Assembly: GCF_003259315.1 (NCBI RefSeq)
Contig: NZ_QLLT01000008.1
Location: 62,001-126,000, forward strand
Source of the DNA: Kitasatospora sp. SolWspMP-SS2h
GTDB lineage: Bacteria > Actinomycetota > Actinomycetes > Streptomycetales > Streptomycetaceae
DNA: 64,000 bases
Direction of reading: 5' to 3'
This document shows positions 51,727 through 64,000 of this stretch, piece after piece (the first letter of the stretch is position 1; the number at the start of each line of letters is the position of its first letter). The notes under the pieces were generated by a model, which was not told the origin of the DNA, searched no databases, and was given only the letters and a program-made list of their open reading frames with translations. The position numbers and the translations under genes were made by a program.

Positions 51727-52302
51727 GTGGGTGTCAGCCTGAGCAAGGGCGGAAATGTCTCGCTCACCAAGGAGGCGCCCGGCCTGACCGCCGTGGTCGT
51801 CGGCCTCGGGTGGGACGTGCGCACCACCACCGGCACGGACTTCGACCTGGACGCCAGCGCGCTGCTCTGCACCGAGCAGGGCCGGGTCCGGTCCGACGCC
51901 GACTTCATCTTCTTCAACAACCTGAAGAGCGCCGACGGCTCGGTCGAGCACACCGGCGACAACCTCACCGGCGAGGGCGAGGGCGACGACGAGCAGATCA
52001 AGGTGGACCTGGCCGGCGTCCCGGCCGACATCGCCAAGATCGTCTTCCCGGTGTCGATCTACGACGCGGAGAACCGGCAGCAGAGCTTCGGCCAGGTCCG
52101 CAACGCCTTCATCCGGGTGCTGAACCAAGCCGGCGGCGCCGAGATCGCCCGCTACGACCTCTCCGAGGACGCCTCGACCGAGACCGCGATGGTCTTCGGC
52201 GAGCTGTACCGCAACGGCGCCGAGTGGAAGTTCCGCGCCATCGGCCAGGGCTACGCCTCCGGCCTGCGCGGCATCGCGCAGGACTTCGGCGTCAACGTCT
52301 GA
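51727..52302 (+). CDS. terD: TerD-family protein, copy 1
   Basis: 191 aa from GTG 51727, SD GGAGG 6 nt away. Complete TerD domain: [29 protein letters not shown], the Ca2+-binding acidic motifs FDLDASALL and [32 protein letters not shown], and the C-terminal [22 protein letters not shown] followed by [26 protein letters not shown]. TerD proteins bind calcium and are proposed to sit at the inner face of the membrane in a complex with TerC. In streptomycetes they affect differentiation and tellurite response (family knowledge). Near-identical in design to the copy at 55244. Confidence 0.93.
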
Positions 52303-52359: not shown

Positions 52360-54729
52360 CTACTCCGGCGGCAGCGCCATCACCAGGTTGCCCTGGACGG
52401 CGATCAGCAGGTCCTCGCCGCCGGCCAGGTGCCAGGGCAGCTCGGCGCCCGCGTTGGTCTGGAAGACCCAGCGGACCTTGTGGTTGACCACGTCGACGGC
52501 GTAGATGCCGCGGTCCCCGGTGGACACGAACAGGGTGTTCCGGACCAGCACCGGACTGGTGTCCATCGACACCTCGGTGGGCAGCTCCAGGTGCCACAGC
52601 TCGGTGCCGTCGGCGGCGTCGAAGGCCACCACCCGGGTCGGGGCGGTCGGGGTGTAGGTGGTGCCCTGGTAGGTGAGCGTCATGCCGCCGAGCACCGAGT
52701 ACACGACGTGCCCGCCCGCCGCGGGCGGCGAGTACCACATCCGGGTCGAGCGGTCCGAGGTCTTCGCCCAGACCCGCTTGCCGTCGGAGACCCGCACGCC
52801 CTGGATGCCGTTCGGGTCGACCGAGCAGAACACCAGGCCGTCCTGGAGCACCGGCCGGTACTCCGAGCGCGAGTTGGTGGCGGCGAACCAGGTCTGGGCG
52901 CCGTCGGCCAGCGACCGGGCGACCAGGTTCTCCTTGCTGTCGGTGTAGAGCAGGGTGTCGGCGGTCAGGTCGGAGCTGACCGTGTAGTCGGCGGTCTGCT
53001 GGCGGTGCTGGTTCCACAGCATCGAGCCGTCCTCGCGGGACAGCGCCATGATGCCCTTGCCGGTCCTGGCGCCCATGTCGGGCATGCCGTCGGCGTCCGT
53101 CTGCAGGTACGAGCACATCGCGTACACGGCGCGGTCGTCGGCGTTCAGCACCGTGTCCGAGGCGATCTGGGTGCCGTTCGGCTTCCCCCGCTCGGACTGG
53201 TACTTCCACAGCACGGTGCCGGTGGCGGCGTCCACCGTGATCAGGTCGGAGACGGTGCCGTAGCTGACCGTGCCGCCCGCGCAGGCCAGGTGGTAGGCCA
53301 TCGCGTCCTTGGTGATCCACCTCTCCTTCCCGTCGGCCAGGCCCACCGCGATCAGGTCGGCGCTGCCGAGGTGCAGCAGGCCGGGGGAGAAGGCCATGCC
53401 GAGGCTGCCGACGTTGCTCGCTTCGGTCCGGTACGTCCACAGCGGGGCCGGCGGCATGCCGGGGGCCCGGGACGGGGCGGCACTCGACGCGGCGGCCGGG
53501 ACGGCCGGGGAGCCGGTCGGCGGGGCCGGGTCCGGGCCCGGGCCGGGCCGCTGACCGCCGCCCAGCGTCCAGGCGGTCAGGCCGCCCGCGCCGGCCAGCA
53601 CCGCCGCGCCGCCGCCGAACAGCAGCGCCCGGCGGGACGGGCGGCGGCCCCCGGCGGCCGGCTCGGTGGGGTGCCCGACCGGCGCGGCGGCGCCGGTGGC
53701 CGCGCCGGCCGGGGCCGGGACGCCGGGGCGCAGGCGGACGGTGCCCGGGTCGGCGGGGGCGGACCGCTCGGTCGGGGTGCGGACGGCCGGGCCCGACCGG
53801 GGGTCGCGGGAGCGGACCGGCGCCTCCAGGTCCATCATCTCGGCGGCGCGGGCGGCGAGGTCCGAGGCCAGCGCGGCCGGCAGCCAGCCGGAGCGGACCG
53901 GGACGACCGCCTCGCCCAGCAGCCCGCCGAGTTCGGCGGGCGTCGGGCGGCCCGCCGGGTCCTTGGCCAGGCAGGCGGCGACCGCCGGACGCAGCGCCCC
54001 GGGCAGCCCCGACAGCTCGGGCTCGTCGTGCACCACCCGGTACAGCAGCGAGGCCGCGGACGGCGCCGCGCCGTCCTCGGCGTGGTCGAACGGGCCGCGG
54101 CCGGTGGCGGCGAAGACCAGCACCGAGCCCAGCGAGAACACGTCGCCGGCCGGGCCCAGCCGGCGTCCGGCGGCCTGCTCGGGGCTCATGAACCCGGGCG
54201 AGCCCACCACCACGCCGGTGGACGTCATCCGGTCGCCGTCCAGCGCCCGGGCGATGCCGAAGTCGATCACCCGCGGCCCGTCGGCGGCCAGCAGCACGTT
54301 GGACGGCTTGAGGTCGCGGTGCACCAGCCCGGCGGCGTGGATCGCGGCCAGCGCCCGGGCCAGGCCCGCACCCAGGGTGCGCACCGTCTCCACCGGGAGC
54401 GGCCCGTGGGCGCGCACCGCCTCGTCCAGCGCCGGGCCGAGCACGTACGCGGTGGCCAGCCAGGGCGACGGGCCGTCCCGGTCGGCGTCCACCACCGGGG
54501 CGGTGAAGGTGCCGCCCACGGACTGCGCGGCGGACACCTCGCGCCGGAACCGCTCGCGGAAGTCGGCGTCCCCGGCCAGGTCGGCGCGGACCACCTTGAC
54601 CGCGACCGTCCGGCCGCCGGCGGAACGGGCCAGGTACACCCGGCCCATGCCGCCGGCGCCGAGTCCGGCCAGCAGGCGGTAGGGGCCGACCGACTCGGGG
54701 TCGGTGCGGTCGAGCGGTTCGAACGGCAT
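52360..54729 (-). CDS. Ser/Thr protein kinase with C-terminal PQQ-type beta-propeller
   Basis: 789 aa from ATG 54729. The kinase domain (about 15-275) looks active: glycine loop [18 protein letters not shown] lysine, HRDLKPSN catalytic loop, DFGIA and [10 protein letters not shown] Pro/Ala-rich juxtamembrane region leads to one TM segment near residue 375 ([22 protein letters not shown]). Outside it, residues about 430-785 form a PQQ-like propeller with repeated blades ([53 protein letters not shown]). The topology implies an extracellular sensor controlling an intracellular kinase. It lies between, and on the opposite strand from, the two terD genes, so TerD or other Ter proteins are attractive but unproven substrates. 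Confidence 0.9.
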
Positions 54730-55243: not shown

Positions 55244-55819
55244 ATGTCCGTCACCCTCGCCAAGGGCGGGAACGTCTCGCTCACCAAGGCCGCGCCGAAC
55301 CTGACGCAGGTGCAGATCGGCCTCGGCTGGGACGCCCGGTCCACCACCGGCGCGCCCTTCGACCTGGACGCCAGCGCGCTGCTGTGCTCCAACGGCCGCG
55401 TCCTCGGCGACGAGTACTTCGTGTTCTACAACAACCTGCGCAGCCCCGAGGGCTCGGTCGAGCACCAGGGCGACAACCTCACCGGTGACGGCGACGGCGA
55501 CGACGAGGTGGTGCAGGTGCACCTCGACCTGGTGCCCGTGCAGATCGACAAGGTCGTGTTCGCCGTCTCCATCTACGACGCCGACGCCCGGCTGCAGAGC
55601 TTCGGCCAGGTCTCCAACGCCTACATCCGGGTGGTCAACCTGGCGGACGGCGCCGAGATCGCCCGCTACGACCTCTCCGAGGACGCGTCCAGCGAGACCG
55701 CGATGATCTTCGGCGAGCTCTACCGCTACCAGGGCGAGTGGAAGTTCCGGGCCGTCGGCCAGGGCTACGCCTCGGGGCTGCGCGGCATCGCGCTCGACTT
55801 CGGCGTCAACGTCCAGTAA
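55244..55819 (+). CDS. terD: TerD-family protein, copy 2
   Basis: 191 aa from ATG 55244, SD GGGAGGAAG. Same length and architecture as the copy at 51727: [108 protein letters not shown] and the [26 protein letters not shown] end. All Ca-binding acidic positions are retained. It is 67 bp upstream of terC on the same strand and probably co-transcribed with it, whereas copy 1 stands with ahpE. The two copies probably arose by duplication flanking the kinase gene. Confidence 0.94.
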
Positions 55820-55886: not shown

Positions 55887-57002
55887 GTGTTCCTCCGTAC
55901 GTTCGGATGGTCCTTCGCCATCACGATCGCCGGCCTGATCGCCGCCGGCCTGATCTGGGGGGCCGAAGGATTCGGCGTCGTCCTGATCCTCTCGATCCTC
56001 GAGATCTCCCTGTCCTTCGACAACGCCGTCGTCAACGCCACCGTCCTGAAGCGGATGAACGCCTTCTGGCAGAAGCTGTTCCTGACGGTCGGCGTGCTGA
56101 TCGCGGTCTTCGGCATGCGGCTGGTCTTCCCGCTGCTGGTCGTCGGCCTCACCGCGCACCTCAGCCCCGGCACCGTCATCGAGCTGGCGCTCGACTCCGG
56201 CAAGACCCACGACGGCCACACCTACGCCGAGTACCTCGACCTGGCCAACCCGGCCATCGCGGCCTTCGGCGGCGTCTTCCTGCTGATGATCTTCCTCGAC
56301 TTCGTCTTCGAGGAGAAGGACTTCAACTGGCTGCGCTGGCTGGAGAAGCCGCTGGAGAAGATCGGCCGGCTGGACGCGCTCTCCTCGGTCGTCGCCCTGG
56401 TGGTGCTCGCCCTGTCCTCCCGCTTCTTCGCCGGTGACCGCGCCGAGACGGTGCTGCTGGCCGGCCTCTGCGGCCTCGCCACCTACCTCGCCGTCAACGG
56501 CCTCTCCGAGGTCTTCGAATCCGGACTGGAGGAGCAGCAGGAGGCCGAGGAGCAGGCCGAGCGCAGCGGCAAGTCGATCGTCCAGGTCGGCGGCAAGGCC
56601 GCGTTCTTCCTCTTCATCTACCTGGAGGTCCTCGACGCGTCGTTCTCCTTCGACGGCGTGGTCGGCGCGTTCGCCATCTCCCAGGACATCTTCCAGATCA
56701 CCCTGGGCCTGGGCATCGGCGCCATGTACATCCGGTCGCTGACCGTCTTCCTGGTCCGCAAGGGCACCCTGGACGACTACGTGTACCTGGAGCACGGCGC
56801 GCACTACGCGATCGGTGCGCTGTCGCTGATCCTGCTCGCCTCGATCAAGTACCACATCCCGGAGATCGTCACCGGCCTGATCGGCGTCGCCTTCATCGGC
56901 GCGGCGCTGGCCTCCTCGATGGTCCGCAACAAGCGCCAGCAGGCGCTGGAGGACGCGGGAACGGGCGCGGGAACGGGAACGGGCGCGGGCGCGGAGGGCT
57001 AG
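55887..57002 (+). CDS. terC: TerC-family integral membrane protein (DUF475 type)
   Basis: 371 aa from GTG 55887 with an AAAGG SD. About eight to nine TM segments. The defining acidic motifs occur in membrane segments: ILEISLSFDNAVVNATVLKRM near residue 40 and LEVLDASFSFDGVVGAFAISQD near residue 250. Cytoplasmic helices rich in Glu/Gln (ESGLEEQQEAEEQAE) lie between. TerC is required for tellurite resistance in Ter systems, and homologues act in Mn2+ export or metalation of secreted proteins. It likely forms a complex with TerD at the membrane. A 20-bp hairpin follows. Confidence 0.93.
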   Translation: MFLRTFGWSFAITIAGLIAAGLIWGAEGFGVVLILSILEISLSFDNAVVNATVLKRMNAFWQKLFLTVGVLIAVFGMRLVFPLLVVGLTAHLSPGTVIELALDSGKTHDGHTYAEYLDLANPAIAAFGGVFLLMIFLDFVFEEKDFNWLRWLEKPLEKIGRLDALSSVVALVVLALSSRFFAGDRAETVLLAGLCGLATYLAVNGLSEVFESGLEEQQEAEEQAERSGKSIVQVGGKAAFFLFIYLEVLDASFSFDGVVGAFAISQDIFQITLGLGIGAMYIRSLTVFLVRKGTLDDYVYLEHGAHYAIGALSLILLASIKYHIPEIVTGLIGVAFIGAALASSMVRNKRQQALEDAGTGAGTGTGAGAEG

Positions 57003-57148: not shown

Positions 57149-58276
57149 TCAGCCGAGCTGCTGCTCGATCGCCCGGAGCTTGCGCTCCAGCGAGTCCAGC
57201 TTCGGCATCGACAGGGTGTCCTCGTCCATCGTCAGGTCGATGCTCGACGAGTACGAGGAGGAGGAGCTGCTGCTCGACGCGTAGGGGGACGACGACGAGC
57301 TGCTGCCGGTGGACTCGACGGCCGCGCGGGGGCGGCGACCGGCGTTCAGGGCGGCGGGCTCCAGGGCGGAGGCGCCGACCCGGTCGAGGGTGGTCTCCTC
57401 GGCGGCTAGGGCAGGCTCCGTTGCGGACGGGGTGTCGCCACCGGCCGCGGCCAGGGCCGGGACCTGGCGGGCGTGCCGGGCCCGGGCCAGCACGCCGCCC
57501 TGGCGGGCGATCGCCTTCAGCTCGGCCCGCTCGCGGCGGTCGGCGCTGCGGGCGCGGAGCTTGGCGTCCATCTTGGCCTGCCGCTCCTCGCGCACCTCCT
57601 CGACGGCCTCGTCCAGGCTGCGGACGTTCTCCAGCAGCATCAGCGACCAGGCCGCGTAGGTCTCGCGCGGGGCGCGCAGCCAGCGGACCACCCGGATCTG
57701 CGGCAGCGGGCGGGGCACCAGGCCCTGCTCGCGCAGCGCGGCCCGGCGGGTCTGCTTGAGCGCCCGGTCGAACAGCACGGCCGCCGAGATCGACATGCCG
57801 GCGAAGAACTGCGGGGCGCCGTCGTGCGCGCCGCCGCGCGGGGCGTGCACCCAGTTGAACCAGGCGGAGGCGACGGCGAACAGCCACACCAGCATCCGGG
57901 AGCCGAGCGCGGCGTCGCCGTGGCTGGCCTCGCGGACGGCGAGGACCGAGCAGAACATGGCCGCGCCGTCCAGGCCGAACGGGACCAGGTACTCCCAGCC
58001 GCCGGACAGGTTCAGGTTCTGCTGGCCGAAACCGACCAGGCCGTGGAACGACAGCGCGGCGGCCACACCGGCGCAGCAGAACAGCAGCACGTAGGAGGCG
58101 CCGCCGTAGATGGCCTCCTTGCGGCGCCGGCGCTCCTCGCTCCGCTCCCACGAGTCGCCGGAGGACTCGTCGGGCTTGTTGTTCTTGAAGCGCAGGAAGG
58201 CCACCAGGATGGCGGTGAACAGCAGGGCTGCACCGCCTACCACGGCCCAGACCAGCTGTATGGAGGAGAGGTTCAT
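57149..58276 (-). CDS. DUF2637-type membrane protein with Ser-rich tail
   Basis: 375 aa from ATG 58276. It has five predicted TM segments: about 7-29, 57-78, 92-113, 124-142 and 154-170. The 92-145 region (LVPFGLDGAAMFCSVLAVREAS...LFAVASAWFNWVHA) matches the DUF2637 pattern known from actinobacterial plasmid spread genes and chromosomal homologues. A helical, charged cytoplasmic segment follows (EERQAKMDAKLRARSADRRERAELKAIARQ). Then comes a low-complexity Ser-rich stretch near residues 320-345 and a short coiled end (LDSLERKLRAIEQQLG). Function unknown. It lies convergent to terC and divergent from the TerA-like gene, so membership in the Ter locus is by position only. Confidence 0.75.
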   Translation of the reverse strand: MNLSSIQLVWAVVGGAALLFTAILVAFLRFKNNKPDESSGDSWERSEERRRRKEAIYGGASYVLLFCCAGVAAALSFHGLVGFGQQNLNLSGGWEYLVPFGLDGAAMFCSVLAVREASHGDAALGSRMLVWLFAVASAWFNWVHAPRGGAHDGAPQFFAGMSISAAVLFDRALKQTRRAALREQGLVPRPLPQIRVVRWLRAPRETYAAWSLMLLENVRSLDEAVEEVREERQAKMDAKLRARSADRRERAELKAIARQGGVLARARHARQVPALAAAGGDTPSATEPALAAEETTLDRVGASALEPAALNAGRRPRAAVESTGSSSSSSPYASSSSSSSSYSSSIDLTMDEDTLSMPKLDSLERKLRAIEQQLG

Positions 58277-58492
58277 CGCGGGGAGGGCCTCGGCTTTCCG
58301 CAGGGCAGGGGGAAGAGAGGTGACGCACGGTACACCTGTGCGGAGAGACGATATCGCGTCCGGGGAGCGGGCATCGTACGGGAGTGACGAACCCTCTGCC
58401 AGCAGGGCTCGCCGGGGCGCTGACGTTGACTCAGGGCCCCCCGGGTGGGTATGGAGAGGGCGAGGAAGGTACCGGTGCTGGGGGAGGACGCG

Positions 58493-59236
58493 ATGGTCTC
58501 GGTGTGGGAGTTCCTGAAAGGGGACCGCAGCAACACCTTCGACACCGGAGGGCAGTTCAAGGTCACACTGACCAAGTCCCGGCCGCACCACGCCATCACC
58601 GGCACCGCGGCCACCACCGGCTACCTGTACATCAACCTGCACTGGTCGACCCGCAGCGCCGAGGGCCCGGGCGGGAGCGGCGCCCTGCGCCGCTTCTTCG
58701 ACCCGCGCATCCTGCGCCCGCTGGCACCCGCCACCGCCGGGGTCGCGCCGGTCGGCGTCGACCTCGACCTGGCCTGCATGTACGAACTCGCCGACGGCAC
58801 CCGGGGCGTGGTGCAGCCGCTCGGCCGGCTGTTCGGCGACCTGAACCGGCCGCCGTACATCAAGCTCTCCGGCGACGACGTGTCGGGCGCGCCCTCCGGC
58901 GAGACCATGCACATCAACCTGGAGAAGAAGGACCAGTTCAAGCGGCTGCTGATCTTCGTCTACATCTACGACGACACCCCGGCCTTCGACCGCACCCAGG
59001 CCGTGCTCACCATCGTCCCGCAGAGCGGCCCGCGGATCGAGATCCAGCTCGACGAGCGCGCCCCGGCGGCCCGTTCGTGCGCGGTGGTGCTGATCGAGAA
59101 CGACGGGGGCGGCGAGCTGACGATCCGGCGCGAGGTGCGGTACGTGCACGGGTTCCAGTCCGACCTGGACCGGCTGTACGGCTTCGGCATGCAGTGGGAG
59201 CGCGGCTACAAGACGCCGTCCGAGCCCGGGAACTGA
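58493..59236 (+). CDS. TerA/TerD-superfamily protein
   Basis: 247 aa if ATG 58493 is used (GGGGAGG 5 nt upstream). In-frame ATG 58451 and GTG 58445 would extend it by 14-16 residues. It shows Ter-domain features in a diverged form: LTKSRPHHAITGTAATTGYLYINLHW, the acidic VGVDLDLACMYELADGTRGVVQPL, KRLLIFVYIYDDTPAFDRTQAVLTIV and C-terminal YGFGMQWERGYKTP. The overall order resembles TerA-like proteins, whose TerD-like fold is less conserved at the calcium sites. Probably cytoplasmic, possibly part of a Ter complex at the membrane. Confidence 0.75.
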   Translation: MVSVWEFLKGDRSNTFDTGGQFKVTLTKSRPHHAITGTAATTGYLYINLHWSTRSAEGPGGSGALRRFFDPRILRPLAPATAGVAPVGVDLDLACMYELADGTRGVVQPLGRLFGDLNRPPYIKLSGDDVSGAPSGETMHINLEKKDQFKRLLIFVYIYDDTPAFDRTQAVLTIVPQSGPRIEIQLDERAPAARSCAVVLIENDGGGELTIRREVRYVHGFQSDLDRLYGFGMQWERGYKTPSEPGN

Positions 59237-59362: not shown

Positions 59363-60466
59363 TCAGCGCGGCTGGAACTGCGGGCCCTGCGGCGGCAGGG
59401 CGAACGGGGCGCCCGACTGCTGCTGCGGGGGCTGGGCTTGGAGCTGCTGCGACTGCGACTGTGGCTGCTGGGGCTGGTGCTGGGGCGGCTGGGGTTGCTG
59501 CTGGGGGTAGCCGTAGCCCTGCGGCTGCTGCTGAGGCTGCGGCGGGGGGTAGCCGTACCCCTGGGCGGCGGCCGGCTGCGGGTAGCCGTAGCCGTAGCCG
59601 CCGGGCTGGGCCTGGGGCTGCGGGGGCTGCGGCGGGGGGTAGCCGTACCCGGCGGGCTGCGGCTGCTGCGGCGGCTGCTGGACGTGGTGGACGGTCGGCG
59701 GCAGCGCGGGCGGCGGCGGGGCGGTGACCGGCGCGGCCGGGGCCGGCTCCGGGGACGGGTCCGAGACCGGCCGGGAGCCCTCGGCGGGCGTCGCCGGGGC
59801 GATCGTCCAGTCGTCCTCGTCGACCGGCAGCGGCGCGGGCCGCGGCTCGGCGTCCGGGCCGGGGACGCGGACGTCGCCGCTGTGGTCGGTCAGGACGACC
59901 GCGGAGCCGCCCGGGGCGGCGTCCTCGTCCTCGACGGCGATGCCGAAGTCGGTGGCCAGCGCGACCAGTCCGTCCAGGTAGCCCTGGCCGACCGCCCGGA
60001 ACTTCCAGCCCCCGGCCCGGCGGTACAGCTCGGCGGCGACCAGCGCGGTCACCTGCTCGTGCTCGTCGATCGCGAACTCGGCCAGCGCGGGCGCCCCCTC
60101 GGGTGCCGCCGCGTCGAACAGCAGCACCCGCAGTCCGGGCACCGCGGGGAACGCGCCGCCCTCCGCCGAACCGGCCAGCACCACCCGGTCGATCTCGGGC
60201 GGCAGCTGGGCCAGGTCGATCTCCAGCCCGTCCCGCACCGTCCCGTCCGCGGTCTGCTTGGGCAGGTGCCGGACCAGGCCCGACGGGTGCCGCGGCTGGT
60301 TGTAGAACACGAAGTCGGTGTCGTCGCGGACCTTGCCCCGGTCGGTCACCAGCAGCGCCGAGGCGTCCACGTCCGGGACGCCCGGGGTGTCCGTCCACCG
60401 CAGGACGGCACGGACGGCGTCGGCCGTCAGCGGGATGTTTGCGCCCTTCGCCATCACGTGCGTCAT
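59363..60466 (-). CDS. TerD-domain protein with Pro/Gln/Tyr-rich C-terminal tail
   Basis: 367 aa from ATG 60466 (GGATG SD; ATG 60454 is a second possibility). Residues about 1-180 are a TerD domain: [94 protein letters not shown]. From about 185 an acidic, Pro/Ala linker leads to an intrinsically disordered tail (about 250-367) with recurring GYGYP/PPPQ/QQPQ units. Such tails can mediate multivalent interactions; a scaffold role is inference. It is divergent from the HpcH-like gene, across an AT-rich promoter region. Confidence 0.87.
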
Positions 60467-60824
60467 AGCGCACCATCCTGCCGTCTTCCGGGGGCCCGGG
60501 ACAATGCGGGGTTGCGGCATCGGCGAGCCCCGCCGGCGGGCCCCTTCCGGGCGCTCCGGGGGTGCTCCGGGGGTGCTCCGGGGGCGGGGCGGCGCCGGTG
60601 CCGATGACAGCGCGGACAAACTTGCGAGAATTCGATGTTTCGAACTCTTTCGCGGAGGTCATCCGCCCGTACGATGAACCGCCGACGGCCCCGGCGCTCC
60701 GCACCCCGCGACGGTGTCGGCGTTCCGGCGAACTTTCCGGCCGCGCCGACCGTCCCACGGGAGGGAGAGGCGTCAGCCGTTCCCGCCGTCGGCGGACCCC
60801 ACCAGACCACAGCGGGAGAGCACT
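60467..60824. other. Divergent promoter region of the Ter biosynthetic module
   Basis: 358 bp without a gene. It contains an 11-bp tandem triplication (GCTCCGGGGGT) at 60553-60585 and an AT-rich patch at about 60615-60650 with the inverted repeat TTCGA-n4-TCGAA at 60631-60644. A candidate promoter is TTTCGC (60648-60653), 16 bp, TACGAT (60670-60675) for the rightward HpcH-like gene. Confidence 0.5.
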
Positions 60825-61997
60825 TTGCGCCACTTCGGGCATCTCGCGGACGACGTCCGCACCCGGCTCTTTCACGAGCAGCCCGCCGCTTTCGACCGCG
60901 ACAGCGAGGCGTCCGTCCTCGCCACCGCGCTCGGCGCCACGCTCTACAGCCCCGCCACCCGGCCCACCCTGGCCCGCGACATCCGGAAGCAGGCCGCCCG
61001 CGGGGTGGTCTCGATGGTGCTCTGCCTGGAGGACGCGATCGCCGACCACGAGGTCGACGACGCCGAGCAGAACCTGGTCGCCCAGCTCACCGCGCTGGCC
61101 GGGCAGGGCGCCGACGCCGAACTGCCGCTGCTGTTCGTCCGGGTCCGGGCCGCCGAGCAGATCACCGACCTGGCCGGCCGCCTCGGCCCCGCGCTGCGCC
61201 TGCTCAGCGGCTTCGTGGTGCCCAAGTTCACCGAGGACAGCGGCCTGCCCTTCCTGGAGGCGCTGACCGACGCCGAGGAGCGCACCGGACAGCGGCTGTT
61301 CGTCATGCCGGTGCTCGAATCGCCCGAACTCGCCCACCTGGAGAGCCGCCGCGACCAGCTGCACGGCATCGCCCGGCTGCTCGACAAGCACCGCCCGCGG
61401 GTCCTCGCCGTCCGGCTCGGCGTCACCGACCTGTGCTCCGCGTACGGGCTGCGCCGCTCGCCCGACCTGACCGCCTACGACGTGGCCCTGGTGGCCGGCG
61501 TGATCGGCGACGTGGTCAACGTGCTCGGCCGGGCCGACGGCACCGGGTACACCGTCACCGGGCCGGTCTGGGAGTACTTCCCGCTGCACGAGCGGATGTT
61601 CAAGCCGCAGCTGCGCCGCACCCCGTTCACCGAGGCCACCCCGCCCGCCGACGGGGTCCGCCAGCGGCTGATCGAGCACGACCTGGACGGGCTGATCCGG
61701 GAGATCGAACTCGACCGGGCCAACGGCCTGCTCGGCAAGACCTGCATCCACCCCAGCCACGTCGCCGCCGTGCACGCGCTGTCCGTGGTCACCCACGAGG
61801 AGCTGTGCGACGCCCGGGACATCCTCCAGCAGCACCGCGGCGGCGGCGGGGTCAGCCGCTCCGCGTACACCAACAAGATGAACGAGGCCAAGCCGCACCG
61901 GGCCTGGGCGGAGCGGGTGCTGCTGCGGGCCGAGGTGTTCGGCGTGGCCCGGCCCGAGGTCACCTTCGCGGAGCTGCTGTCGGCCTGCGTGTGCTGA
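60825..61997 (+). CDS. HpcH/HpaI aldolase / citrate-lyase beta-like protein (Ter module)
   Basis: 390 aa from TTG 60825, chosen because GGGAGAG lies just upstream and the protein begins RHFGHLADDVRTRLFHE. Alternative in-frame starts further left sit in non-coding-looking sequence. TIM-barrel CitE-like features: ATALGATLYSPATRPTLARDIRKQAARGVVSMVLCLEDAIAD with the metal-binding Glu/Asp, LFVRVRAAEQI, VMPVLESPELAHL and GKTCIHPSHVAAVHAL near residue 300. Members cleave or form C-C bonds with CoA-thioester or keto-acid substrates. Its order with a phosphoribosyltransferase and StiP matches the Ter-associated biosynthetic module, so it probably acts on a small nucleoside-like metabolite rather than citrate. 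Confidence 0.82.
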   Translation: MRHFGHLADDVRTRLFHEQPAAFDRDSEASVLATALGATLYSPATRPTLARDIRKQAARGVVSMVLCLEDAIADHEVDDAEQNLVAQLTALAGQGADAELPLLFVRVRAAEQITDLAGRLGPALRLLSGFVVPKFTEDSGLPFLEALTDAEERTGQRLFVMPVLESPELAHLESRRDQLHGIARLLDKHRPRVLAVRLGVTDLCSAYGLRRSPDLTAYDVALVAGVIGDVVNVLGRADGTGYTVTGPVWEYFPLHERMFKPQLRRTPFTEATPPADGVRQRLIEHDLDGLIREIELDRANGLLGKTCIHPSHVAAVHALSVVTHEELCDARDILQQHRGGGGVSRSAYTNKMNEAKPHRAWAERVLLRAEVFGVARPEVTFAELLSACVC

Positions 61998-62303
61998 CCG
62001 GCGGGGTCCTCGGCGGGCGGGTCCTCGGCGGGTGGGGTCCTTGACCGGCAAGTCTTTTGACGGAGTGTCAGCCGATCGGTCGATGGCCGGGTCGGCCGTT
62101 CGGCGCGCCGGGAGCGGCCGGTCGGTGCGCGGACGCTGGCCGGTCGGATGATCCGGGGACGCTGGCGCGCCCCGTAGGCTCGAACCCGAACCGCACAGCC
62201 GTGCGCCCGCGTCCGTCCCACTGGCACCACCCGTACCGCTTGACCCGCCCGCACCCGACCACCCGCACCGTCCGTACCTGCCTGCCCGTCGAGAGGAGCC
62301 CCG
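61998..62303. other. Spacer between HpcH-like and phosphoribosyltransferase genes
   Basis: 306 bp. It starts with a 15-bp direct repeat (GGTCCTCGGCGGGCG, 62006-62035). TAGGCT at 62175-62180 is a possible -10 for the downstream gene, about 120 nt before its ATG. No terminator is clear. Confidence 0.4.
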
Positions 62304-63623
62304 ATGACCGCCGACACCGACACCGACACCACCGCCCCCGGGCCGGTCGGGGCCGATCCCTGGCCCGGCCAGTGGGTCACCGACCGGCTCGGCCTCCGCC
62401 TCACCGGCGGGCCCGAGCTGACCGGGCTGATCGGCCTCGCCCTGCGGGTCAACCCCCGGCGGGCCCACCTGCTGGTCTCCCGGGTGCTGGGCAAGCACGT
62501 CCCGCAGCGGCCCGCGGCGGTGCACGGCGCCGGGCTCGACCTCGGCCGCCGGGTCGCCGACCTGCTCGGTCCGGCGGACGCCGCGCGCGCCGTCGTGCTC
62601 GGCTACGCCGAGACCGCCACCGCCCTCGGCCACAGCGTCGCCGACGGGCTCGACGCGCCCTACCTGCACTCCACCCGGCGGCCCGTCCCCGGCGTCGCCC
62701 CGCTCGGCGGCTTCGAGGAGGAGCACTCGCACGCCACCAGCCACCTGCTGCTCCCCGAGGACCCGGAGCTGCTGGCCGGCGACGGCCCGCTGGTGCTGGT
62801 CGACGACGAGTTCTCCACCGGCACCACCGTCATCAACACCATCCGCGCCCTGCACGCCGCGCACCCGCGCGAGCGGTACGTCGCCGTCGCCCTGGTCGAC
62901 CTGCGCACCCCCGCCGACCGGGCCCGGCTGCACGCAGCCGCGGCCGAGCTCGGCGCCCGCCTCGACCTGGTCGCCACCGCCGCCGGCGGTGTCGACCTGC
63001 CGGCGGACGTGCTGGACCGGGCCCGCGAGCTGATCGCCGCCGCCCCCGCGCCCCCGCCGCCCACCGGTCCGCTCGGCGAGCTGACCAGGGCCGACCTGCC
63101 CTGGCCCGCCGACCTGCCCGACGGCGGCCGGCACGGCTTCACCCCCGCCCACCGCCGCCGCCTCGACGCCGCCCTGCCCGCCCTCGGCGCCGCCCTCGCC
63201 GAGGCCGTCGGCCCCCGCCCCGGCCGGGTCCTGGTGCTCGGCTGCGAGGAGCTGATGTACGCCCCGCTGCGGCTCGCCGGGGCCCTCCAGCAGGCCCGGC
63301 CCGACGCCGAGGTGCGGTTCTCCACCACCACCCGCTCCCCGGTGTTCGCCCTCGACGACCCCGGCTACGCCATCCGCACCCGCCTCGCCTTCGCCGCGCA
63401 CGACGACCCGGCCGACCGCTCCACCGAGCGCTACGCCTACAACGTCGCCCCCGGCGCCGACCCCGCCCGCCGCTTCGACACCGTCGTCCTGGTCGTCGAC
63501 GACCCCGCCGACACCCCCGCCCTGCACCACGGCCCGGCCGCCCTGCTGCCCGCCCTGCGCACCGCCACCGACCGGGTGGTGCTCGCCGTTCTCCCGTCGT
63601 ACCGCCCCGCGACACCCGCCTGA
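62304..63623 (+). CDS. Phosphoribosyltransferase-domain protein (TRSP type, Ter module)
   Basis: 439 aa from ATG 62304, SD GGAG. The N-terminal PRTase domain contains a PRPP-binding loop VLVDDEFSTGTTVINTIRAL near residues 165-185, preceded by GYAETATALGHSVADGLDAPYLHSTRR and the phosphate-contacting EEEHSHATSHLL. After a Pro-rich hinge (about 250-260) a C-terminal domain (about 290-439) has GRVLVLGCEELMYAPLRLAGALQQ and VVLVVDDPAD, consistent with the TRSP domain fused to such PRTases. It probably transfers ribose 5-phosphate to or from a base-like substrate. It is followed 44 bp later by the StiP gene, so they are likely co-transcribed. Confidence 0.83.
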   Translation: MTADTDTDTTAPGPVGADPWPGQWVTDRLGLRLTGGPELTGLIGLALRVNPRRAHLLVSRVLGKHVPQRPAAVHGAGLDLGRRVADLLGPADAARAVVLGYAETATALGHSVADGLDAPYLHSTRRPVPGVAPLGGFEEEHSHATSHLLLPEDPELLAGDGPLVLVDDEFSTGTTVINTIRALHAAHPRERYVAVALVDLRTPADRARLHAAAAELGARLDLVATAAGGVDLPADVLDRARELIAAAPAPPPPTGPLGELTRADLPWPADLPDGGRHGFTPAHRRRLDAALPALGAALAEAVGPRPGRVLVLGCEELMYAPLRLAGALQQARPDAEVRFSTTTRSPVFALDDPGYAIRTRLAFAAHDDPADRSTERYAYNVAPGADPARRFDTVVLVVDDPADTPALHHGPAALLPALRTATDRVVLAVLPSYRPATPA

Positions 63624-63667
63624 CGCCCCGCTGCCCGAGCATGTCCGTTACTCGTCGAAGGCACAGC

Positions 63668-64000
63668 ATGACCGCACACACCGTCCCGTCCCCGCCCACC
63701 GCCCGCCCGCTGCACGGCCCGGACTTCTCCAGCTACCCGGCCGCCGACGTCACCTGGCTGCTCAAGGACCTCTCCGACGTCCACCTCGAAGCGCCCACCG
63801 AGGAGCGCGAGGAGGCCGTGCAGTCCGGCGGCGCCCACTACGCCGAGTCGCTGCCCGTCGAGTACCAGCCCAGCCCCGAGTACCAGCAGCTCTTCCACAC
63901 CGCGCTGGCCGCCTCCACCACCCGGCTGGCCACCGCCGTCGGCGCCGTCGCCGAGACGCTGCTGCGCGAGCGCGGCCCGCACCTGGTGCTCGCCTCGCTC
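63668..64000 (+). CDS. StiP family protein (Ter module), truncated by window end
   Basis: 111 codons are visible from ATG 63668 (GAAGG SD); the gene runs off the right edge. The N-terminus is typical of the StiP/cysteine protease-like family found with Ter genes: FSSYPAADVTWLLKDLSDVHLEAPTEEREEAVQSGGAHYAESLPVEYQPSPEYQQLFHTAL. The family has been described as containing a PELOTA-like RNA-binding domain and a possible cysteine-protease fold. Neither the catalytic residues nor the end of the protein can be seen here. It lies 44 bp after the phosphoribosyltransferase gene. Confidence 0.8.
   Translation, partial: MTAHTVPSPPTARPLHGPDFSSYPAADVTWLLKDLSDVHLEAPTEEREEAVQSGGAHYAESLPVEYQPSPEYQQLFHTALAASTTRLATAVGAVAETLLRERGPHLVLASL

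Follow-up and report, generated by a model that had tools for sequence, protein, structure and literature searches.

The 64,000-nucleotide stretch of DNA analysed here ('the window', contig positions 62001–126000 of the 7.58-Mb draft genome of Kitasatospora sp. SolWspMP-SS2h) ends within a cluster of genes for a CitE-like enzyme, a phosphoribosyltransferase (PRTase) and a protein named StiP. This locus is a compact four-gene actinobacterial form of the published Ter-dependent module, which is also found on many plasmids, and its enzyme set probably makes a ribose-bearing stress metabolite. New to this analysis are the PRTase fold predicted for StiP, the status of the CitE-like enzyme as an add-on, and that enzyme's own clade and altered active site.

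The original prediction had placed a CitE-like lyase, a TRSP-type PRTase and StiP side by side at 60825–64000, an arrangement confirmed here. The CitE-like enzyme of the HpcH/HpaI fold, called the lyase below, is encoded on the plus strand at 60825–61997 and matches PF15617 (C-C_Bond_Lyase, E = 1.3e-122); the TTG start at 60825 is preferred because it agrees with RHFGHL, the conserved beginning of related proteins. On the same strand lie the genes for PRTase_2-TRSP (62304–63623; PF15609 PRTase_2, E = 6.7e-67, and a C-terminal PF12500 TRSP domain, E = 1e-38) and for StiP-PELOTA_1 (63668–64831, or L009:4169–5332, where the window position equals the L009 position + 59499; PF11202, E = 3e-108, and PF15608 PELOTA_1, E = 2.7e-34). 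Only the N-terminal part of StiP, up to 64000, is held by the window. That the operon would continue past this edge was likewise foreseen, with a HAD enzyme, an ATP-grasp enzyme or a second PRTase as the expected additions. A HAD phosphatase gene indeed lies on the same contig at 64861–65679, and StiP itself would, by its predicted fold, be the second PRTase. The expectation fails for ATP-grasp, as a PF15632 profile search of the genome found no such gene in the operon or on this contig, its six matches all lying on other contigs.

Intergenic gaps within the module are 306 nt between lyase and PRTase_2, 44 nt between PRTase_2 and StiP and 29 nt between StiP and HAD; across 75 Streptomycetaceae loci, the median distances between the aligned ends are 84, 40 and 18 nt, respectively. 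The order lyase-PRTase_2-StiP-HAD is kept in all 20 same-genus loci fetched and, among 80 loci from Streptomycetaceae, in 75; contig ends cut the remaining five. Such conservation of gene order is far beyond chance. The compact four-gene form is also present in the eight same-family genomes listed. Of the 41 relatives compared, the same 24 genomes hold StiP and a strong lyase match (at least 329 bits). All 24 belong to the 25 same-genus genomes (the window's own included), and StiP is absent from the other 16. The sole same-genus exception, G009, is without StiP, a strong lyase match and PRTase_2, and therefore points to loss of the module as a unit.

PRTase_2-TRSP, StiP and the HAD phosphatase

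By its sequence and predicted fold, PRTase_2-TRSP is a canonical PRTase that binds phosphoribosyl pyrophosphate (PRPP). Its PRPP-loop residues D167, D168, E169, T172, G173 and T175 are invariant in 33 aligned proteins (31 loci were picked from 80, and L095 and L133 were left out for a short or over-long match), and its AlphaFold2 model, with a predicted local distance difference test (pLDDT) score of 87.2, matches APRT with Z 14.3 over 174 residues at 3.2 Å. The HAD protein has no Pfam match at 0.001 and resembles 6d3v, an entry titled as a trehalose phosphatase (E = 1.1e-9). The motif GD(S/G)xxD is found in 90 of 90 HAD sequences and the DxDxT pattern in 89, the remaining one reading DLDGTV, so that the protein can be classed, on these motifs, as a HAD phosphatase with an intact signature.

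StiP carries the name of a cysteine protease in both Pfam and RefSeq. An alignment of 95 StiP sequences, about 81 of them from Streptomycetaceae and so not independent, contains no invariant cysteine column. Cysteines C202 and C218 are each present in 87 of these sequences and C365 in 86. Missing C202 are the sequences from Pseudomonas, Rhizobium, phage ME3, three other phage or viral sources and both distant actinobacteria; C218 is missing from Escherichia coli, Klebsiella, Pseudomonas, Rhizobium, ME3, one viral sequence and, again, both distant actinobacteria. The residues that are invariant throughout the 95 sequences are R113-A-G, S140, D148, F166-V-D-G-W170, D198, D211 and S228-R229.

To judge the fold, the StiP of Kitasatospora griseola can stand in for that of the window, being the closest named relative among the matches listed (94% identical). 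Its AlphaFold2 model, predicted from an alignment of 34 of 83 loci, has a pLDDT of 86.9 and a predicted template modelling (pTM) score of 0.88. All seven Foldseek matches at E ≤ 0.001 were PRTases (six PyrR, one HGPRT), and the 50 matches listed by VIA comprised 48 PRTases and two Bcs3 entries matched in the PRTase-like CriT region. The matches listed are thus all PRTase-like, a list from which the absence of a protease fold is not deduced. The top VIA match was Bcs3 itself (8a0c_A, residues 639–947; Z 10.7, 201 residues, 3.9 Å, 8% identity); further matches were the second Bcs3 entry (Z 10.0), 1ufr_C (Z 9.0, 140 residues) and the PyrR structure 4p86 (Z 8.9), all with Z values just moderately above the range reachable by unrelated folds. 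We take 1ufr to be a PyrR as well, the title of the entry being silent on this.

A single-sequence search of the PDB with StiP returned no match at E ≤ 1, and a profile search returned two weak matches, to a transporter binding protein (E = 0.34) and to eS12 (E = 0.38). A Pribosyltran protein (L073 of G250; PF00156, E = 3.6e-20) also fits the StiP profile in the same region (E = 9e-5, under the cut-off), and the RAG and FVDGW motifs of StiP stand in register with the RAG and VDP motifs of UPRT. For the UPRT and Pribosyltran sets, motif-based picking of open reading frames succeeded at 28 of 30 UPRT loci but at just 2 of the 30 for Pribosyltran, whose sequences were collected with phmmer. At the level of sequence, the link of StiP to UPRT is suggestive only.

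The PRPP loop of StiP, D168-G169-W170, is invariant in the 95 sequences and is without the canonical acidic pair. Because the second acid is missing, we call StiP a PRTase-fold protein and not a proven PRTase; as judged from the model, it combines such a fold with a PELOTA-type domain. In their predicted folds, PRTase_2 and StiP both resemble the type I nucleobase PRTases (APRT, UPRT, PyrR), PRTase_2 having the full PRPP loop. They differ from these enzymes in carrying TRSP or PELOTA extensions, and StiP additionally in the absent second acid and the presence of W170. PF11202, the StiP family, presumably was formerly named PRTase_1. In the available text, a 2017 survey covering the RNA-binding proteins of E. 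coli gives a count of ten for each of the domains PRTase_1 and PELOTA_1 and refers to a PRTase-PELOTA protein from Ter operons. A 2025 survey, by contrast, places 'StiP family' proteins among the cysteine proteases, following their annotation as far as its accessible part goes (PMC12111023), and was the sole paper on StiP that a phrase search of the literature gave. With no invariant cysteine and a model that matches PRTases, the cysteine protease was rejected as a candidate function.

The lyase and its altered active site

Residue numbers for the lyase refer to a 427-residue version starting from the GTG at 60714 and are to be reduced by 37 for the TTG start. In a tree of 14 Ter lyases and 21 PF03328-type CitE-like proteins of the phylum (21 of 25 CitE loci gave a sequence, two of them partial), the Ter lyases form one clade apart from the CitE-like proteins, with a support of 1.0 and a stem of 2.9. 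A TerD gene stands upstream of the lyase in 75 of 75 lyase-bearing loci. A grouping with the ordinary malyl/citryl-CoA lyases and no Ter association, which would have spoken against the original prediction, was not found.

Like malyl-CoA lyase and the CitE-like enzymes, the Ter lyase belongs to a family of TIM-barrel Mg enzymes and keeps most of the catalytic positions: E106, D107, R143, P170, K171, G236, D239, K342, H346 and P347 are common to both groups. Of the Mg and substrate residues, R143 and D239 are kept, and E202 is invariant in 23 Ter lyases, its CitE counterpart having fallen in an alignment gap. The differences are equally consistent. Position 145 is Arg in 14/14 Ter lyases versus Asn in 21/21 CitE-like proteins, lid position 391 is Glu in 14/14 versus Asp in the 19/19 covered, and T343, V359 and W398 are switched as well. 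The motifs R-x-R and M-x-E recur in all 82 lyases read (of 80 loci, five have lost the gene to contig ends and another four were excluded for a stop in the aligned stretch). Directly before the LED motif, at position 104, 78 of the 82 have Cys and four have Asp.

The catalytic lid Asp, Asp299 of MCLR, is thus replaced by Glu391 in all Ter lyases covered. According to the available text of a study of CitE-like enzymes, this Asp is conserved through the superfamily, the sole exception being the malyl-CoA thioesterase cluster with Glu in its place; the catalytic Arg is hydrogen-bonded by an Asp (PMC3832036). In our own placement on the alignment, the latter Asp would precede LED, i.e. correspond to Cys104 of the Ter lyase. 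Ordinary acyl-CoA lysis is doubtful because the lyase forms its own clade and shows active-site switches from Asn to Arg145 and from lid Asp to Glu391. We infer that the enzyme keeps its Mg site and binds a more anionic substrate, and it may hydrolyse this substrate instead of cleaving a C–C bond.

Core, add-ons and neighbouring genes

A profile scan of genome contigs for StiP gave 587 matches, of which the best 80 were all from Streptomycetaceae; because of this, the breadth outside the actinobacteria rests on plasmid and phage records and on Deinobacterium chartae, a control genome. StiP matches were found in 15 of 296 genomes spread over the phylum (14 above the cut-off) and in 2,566 of 72,556 plasmid records, mostly of Enterobacteriaceae and with 1,051 labelled Klebsiella. 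Phages contributed three of 50,697 records, two being one phage, and viral contigs three loci, one of which was again that same phage.

Six non-actinobacterial plasmid or phage records were read, and five of them hold at least three of the four genes. Enterobacterial (IncHI2 and IncHI1B) and Pseudomonas plasmid Ter clusters resemble the Kitasatospora locus in that a single operon next to TerD/TerC genes encodes PRTase_2, HAD, StiP and the CitE-like enzyme. They differ in gene order and in the ATP-grasp gene added in the three loci read (Pseudomonas, E. coli and Klebsiella), and the two enterobacterial loci also hold TerY/PP2C/kinase genes. Acinetobacter phage ME3 carries PRTase_2-HAD-StiP, its entire 234.9 kb being free of matches to the lyase, and scaffold MT836648 carries PRTase_2, StiP and, on the opposite strand, the lyase. 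A Tsukamurella plasmid locus has all four genes without ATP-grasp. In the distant actinobacteria G170 and G330, PRTase_2-StiP-HAD follows TerD genes with no lyase at the locus; elsewhere in them, on other contigs, PF15617 finds just weak matches (40 and 44 bits), and these have CitE-type residues. Because ME3, G170 and G330 are without the lyase, PRTase_2 and StiP, usually with HAD, make up the most widely shared core, to which the lyase and ATP-grasp are add-ons. The lyase was accordingly rejected as part of this core, as was ATP-grasp as a required partner, being absent also from the Tsukamurella and ME3 loci.

The best PF15632 match of the genome (116.6 bits) has a polyprenyl-synthase gene in its vicinity and is well away from the ter locus. 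Such a Ter-type ATP-grasp gene near a polyprenyl synthetase is seen at L246:8993–9862 (minus strand) with L246:11799–12872 and at L249:4316–8315, where an encapsulin shell protein with a domain that binds cyclic nucleotide monophosphates is encoded between ATP-grasp (PF15632, 113.7 bits) and polyprenyl synthetase. Encapsulin is a possible, unlooked-for partner of the Ter-type ATP-grasp.

Upstream of the module, the five Ter-domain or TerC genes of the original prediction are all present: three for TerD-domain proteins, one for a DUF475/TerC protein and one for a TerA-like protein. Two of the TerD-domain genes (51727–52302, PF02342, E = 6.7e-88; 55244–55819, E = 2.2e-81) are on the plus strand and flank a minus-strand gene for a Ser/Thr kinase with a pyrroloquinoline quinone (PQQ) propeller, as assigned by Pfam (52360–54729). 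The third (59363–60466, minus; E = 1.3e-39), whose product has a P/Q-rich tail, is divergent from the lyase gene. Between them are encoded the DUF475/TerC-family membrane protein (55887–57002, plus; PF04332, E = 3.7e-123, and PF03741, E = 4.4e-20), a DUF2637 protein (57149–58276, minus; PF10935, E = 9.8e-25) and the TerA-like protein (58445–59236, plus), which has no Pfam match at 0.001 and shares 34% identity across 219 residues with an E. coli plasmid TerA, in the C-terminal half of the latter. Downstream, beyond the window, a coiled-coil gene (65989–67341, or L009:6490–7842, minus) is convergent with the HAD gene.

TerD and TerA-like genes before the module and the coiled-coil gene after it recur in 20 of 20 same-genus loci, one of which opens with the TerA-like gene because the contig begins there. 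The coiled-coil gene is also found beside the module in 74 of 80 named Streptomycetaceae loci, and because in Tsukamurella (L074:5389–6588) and in three further actinobacterial loci (L230–L232) it immediately precedes the lyase gene and shares its strand, it may be a fifth part of the actinobacterial form, which has no ATP-grasp in its operon. The DUF2637 gene, present in 19 of 20 same-genus loci but just 6 of the 80 named ones, was dropped as a conserved neighbour and is probably outside the system; the kinase-PQQ gene occurs at this place in two of the 80 (both Kitasatospora) and in some same-genus loci. A scan against PADLOC and PHROGs left the four module proteins without a match at 0.01 and gave weak coiled-coil matches for the coiled-coil protein.

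Other arrangements were met in passing. A viral contig (L161:5000–16400) has lyase-PRTase-StiP-HAD and ATP-grasp close together, with nearby frames that look vWA-like by eye. A trypsin-like peptidase fused to a partial TerD lies within a Pseudomonas-type module (L076:6881–8020) and, 62% identical, on another viral contig (L162:6874–8010). AIM24-type genes stand beside divergent Ter modules of distant actinobacteria and Tsukamurella (L228:3398–6036, L229:4020–6088, L074:1–1343), a designation based on Pfam for one L228 gene, on record annotation for L074 and on likeness alone for the others.

Possible products of the module

The original prediction called this an undescribed pathway, which is too strong: a 2012 comparative analysis, known to us via citing papers, reportedly described the Ter-dependent module and predicted a nucleoside-like metabolite as its product. 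The view of the original prediction that the product is unknown stands within the literature searched, where titles and the starts of abstracts among the matches listed, with subscription journals mostly outside, held no product identification or enzyme assay that we recognised. In the text available, a 2021 study still terms the biosynthetic part of Ter putative, and a 2025 paper words the 2012 prediction as though shown. A TerD-domain gene, SCO2368, has been tied to calcium homeostasis in Streptomyces coelicolor, according to the title of a reference.

We consider it fairly probable that the locus is the Streptomycetaceae form of a Ter-linked biosynthetic module making a ribosylated, nucleoside-like product. 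PRTase_2 would transfer 5-phosphoribosyl from PRPP to a small acceptor, and StiP would carry out a second PRPP-dependent transfer or else complete or position the first. The HAD enzyme would then take off the 5-phosphate to give the ribosylated, nucleoside-like product. The CitE-like enzyme, dispensable in some versions, might trim or build an anionic part of acceptor or product. In the stress response, the product would work together with the membrane complex of TerD and TerC. A bolder version, which strikes us as rather improbable, is a ribosylation pathway of novel chemistry with two PRTases. Here, StiP, with its altered PRPP loop and a domain of RNA-binding type, would add a second ribose-5-phosphate to the PRTase_2 product, HAD would remove the phosphates and the lyase, without the usual lid Asp, would act on a phosphorylated non-CoA substrate. 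The outcome would be a stress messenger bearing two ribose units, to which TerD proteins would respond in Streptomyces as well as on plasmids and in phages.

Several points weigh against a ribosylated, nucleoside-like product. In the Foldseek search with StiP, the PRTases were closely followed by enzymes dependent on pyridoxal phosphate and by sugar-phosphate isomerases (E 1e-3 to 6e-3, probability 0.2–0.75). Profile comparison of StiP with UPRT was very weak, at a best probability of 2.6%, and lent no real support when StiP was set against UPRT, HPRT-like or PRTase_2 alignments; the same method reached just 15.8% for PRTase_2 versus HPRT. With the second acid of its PRPP loop missing, StiP could be a non-catalytic partner, and the changed residues of the lyase would allow more than one reaction. 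Nor is the gene set always whole: no HAD gene was detected on scaffold MT836648, and the Rhizobium plasmid NZ_CP018234 has StiP with PF15609 and PF15617 unmatched anywhere. The latter locus (L075:8986–10214) may be a remnant of the module, because StiP is closely followed by a 26-residue match to the lyase start (E = 8e-4) and, about 3.4 kb farther along, by annotated transposase genes. Lastly, the direction of the pathway is taken as synthesis, to which breakdown is the alternative.

By analogy, the main rival to true nucleoside formation is O-ribosylation, in which StiP, perhaps with PRTase_2, would move ribofuranosyl-5-phosphate to a hydroxyl of a sugar, polyol or other small molecule and HAD would remove the phosphate, in the manner of CriT and CrpP of the Haemophilus influenzae type b capsule polymerase Bcs3. 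It is considered because these two and the Klebsiella O4 and O7 enzymes pair a PRTase-like transferase with a phosphatase: in the accessible descriptions, Bcs3 region 639–947 is the PRTase-like O-ribofuranosyltransferase CriT, which works with a HAD phosphatase, and the Klebsiella ribofuranosyltransferases couple a PRPP-dependent transferase domain to a phosphatase domain. This very region is what the StiP model matches most closely in VIA, and the adjacent DD pair is absent from StiP as it is from CriT. Yet the identity is just 8%, the second Bcs3 entry is nearly tied with PRTases, Bcs3 ranks only 46th in Foldseek (E = 5.5e-3), and the catalytic D680/E818 of CriT could not be mapped on StiP, the match being one of fold. 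Bcs3 also differs in being a single multi-domain protein that works on a capsule polymer and, in the part of its description available, has no lyase, TRSP or PELOTA part, and no glycan-synthesis gene was found among the neighbours scanned by Pfam. All in all, O-ribosylation seems unlikely.

PRTase reactions are reversible, and HAD phosphatases can act on nucleotides. The module could thus break down or repair damaged nucleotides, with PRTases running in reverse or salvaging bases, HAD as a nucleotidase and the lyase opening the base. The stress-linked neighbours would fit, but two dedicated PRTase-fold proteins and the ATP-grasp ligase of the proteobacterial plasmid loci suit synthesis better, and we hold this reading to be quite improbable. 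That StiP is a protease after all and the module partly proteolytic is backed by the database names and the 2025 survey; against the absent cysteine column, the PRTase matches of its model and the domain pair of the 2017 survey, this carries very little weight. Hardly more credible is an ordinary CitE or malyl-CoA lyase of central metabolism that stands here by chance: the shared E106, D107, R143, K171, D239, K342, H346 and P347 would allow it, but the separate clade, the switches at R145 and E391, the R-x-R and M-x-E motifs in every lyase read and the constant TerD gene upstream led us to reject it.

Ter loci are widespread, and the compact four-gene form without ATP-grasp, present in 24 of 25 same-genus genomes, offers a simpler soil-bacterial system for finding the product. 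The relabelling of StiP from protease to PRTase fold, together with the altered active site of the lyase, calls for different assays.

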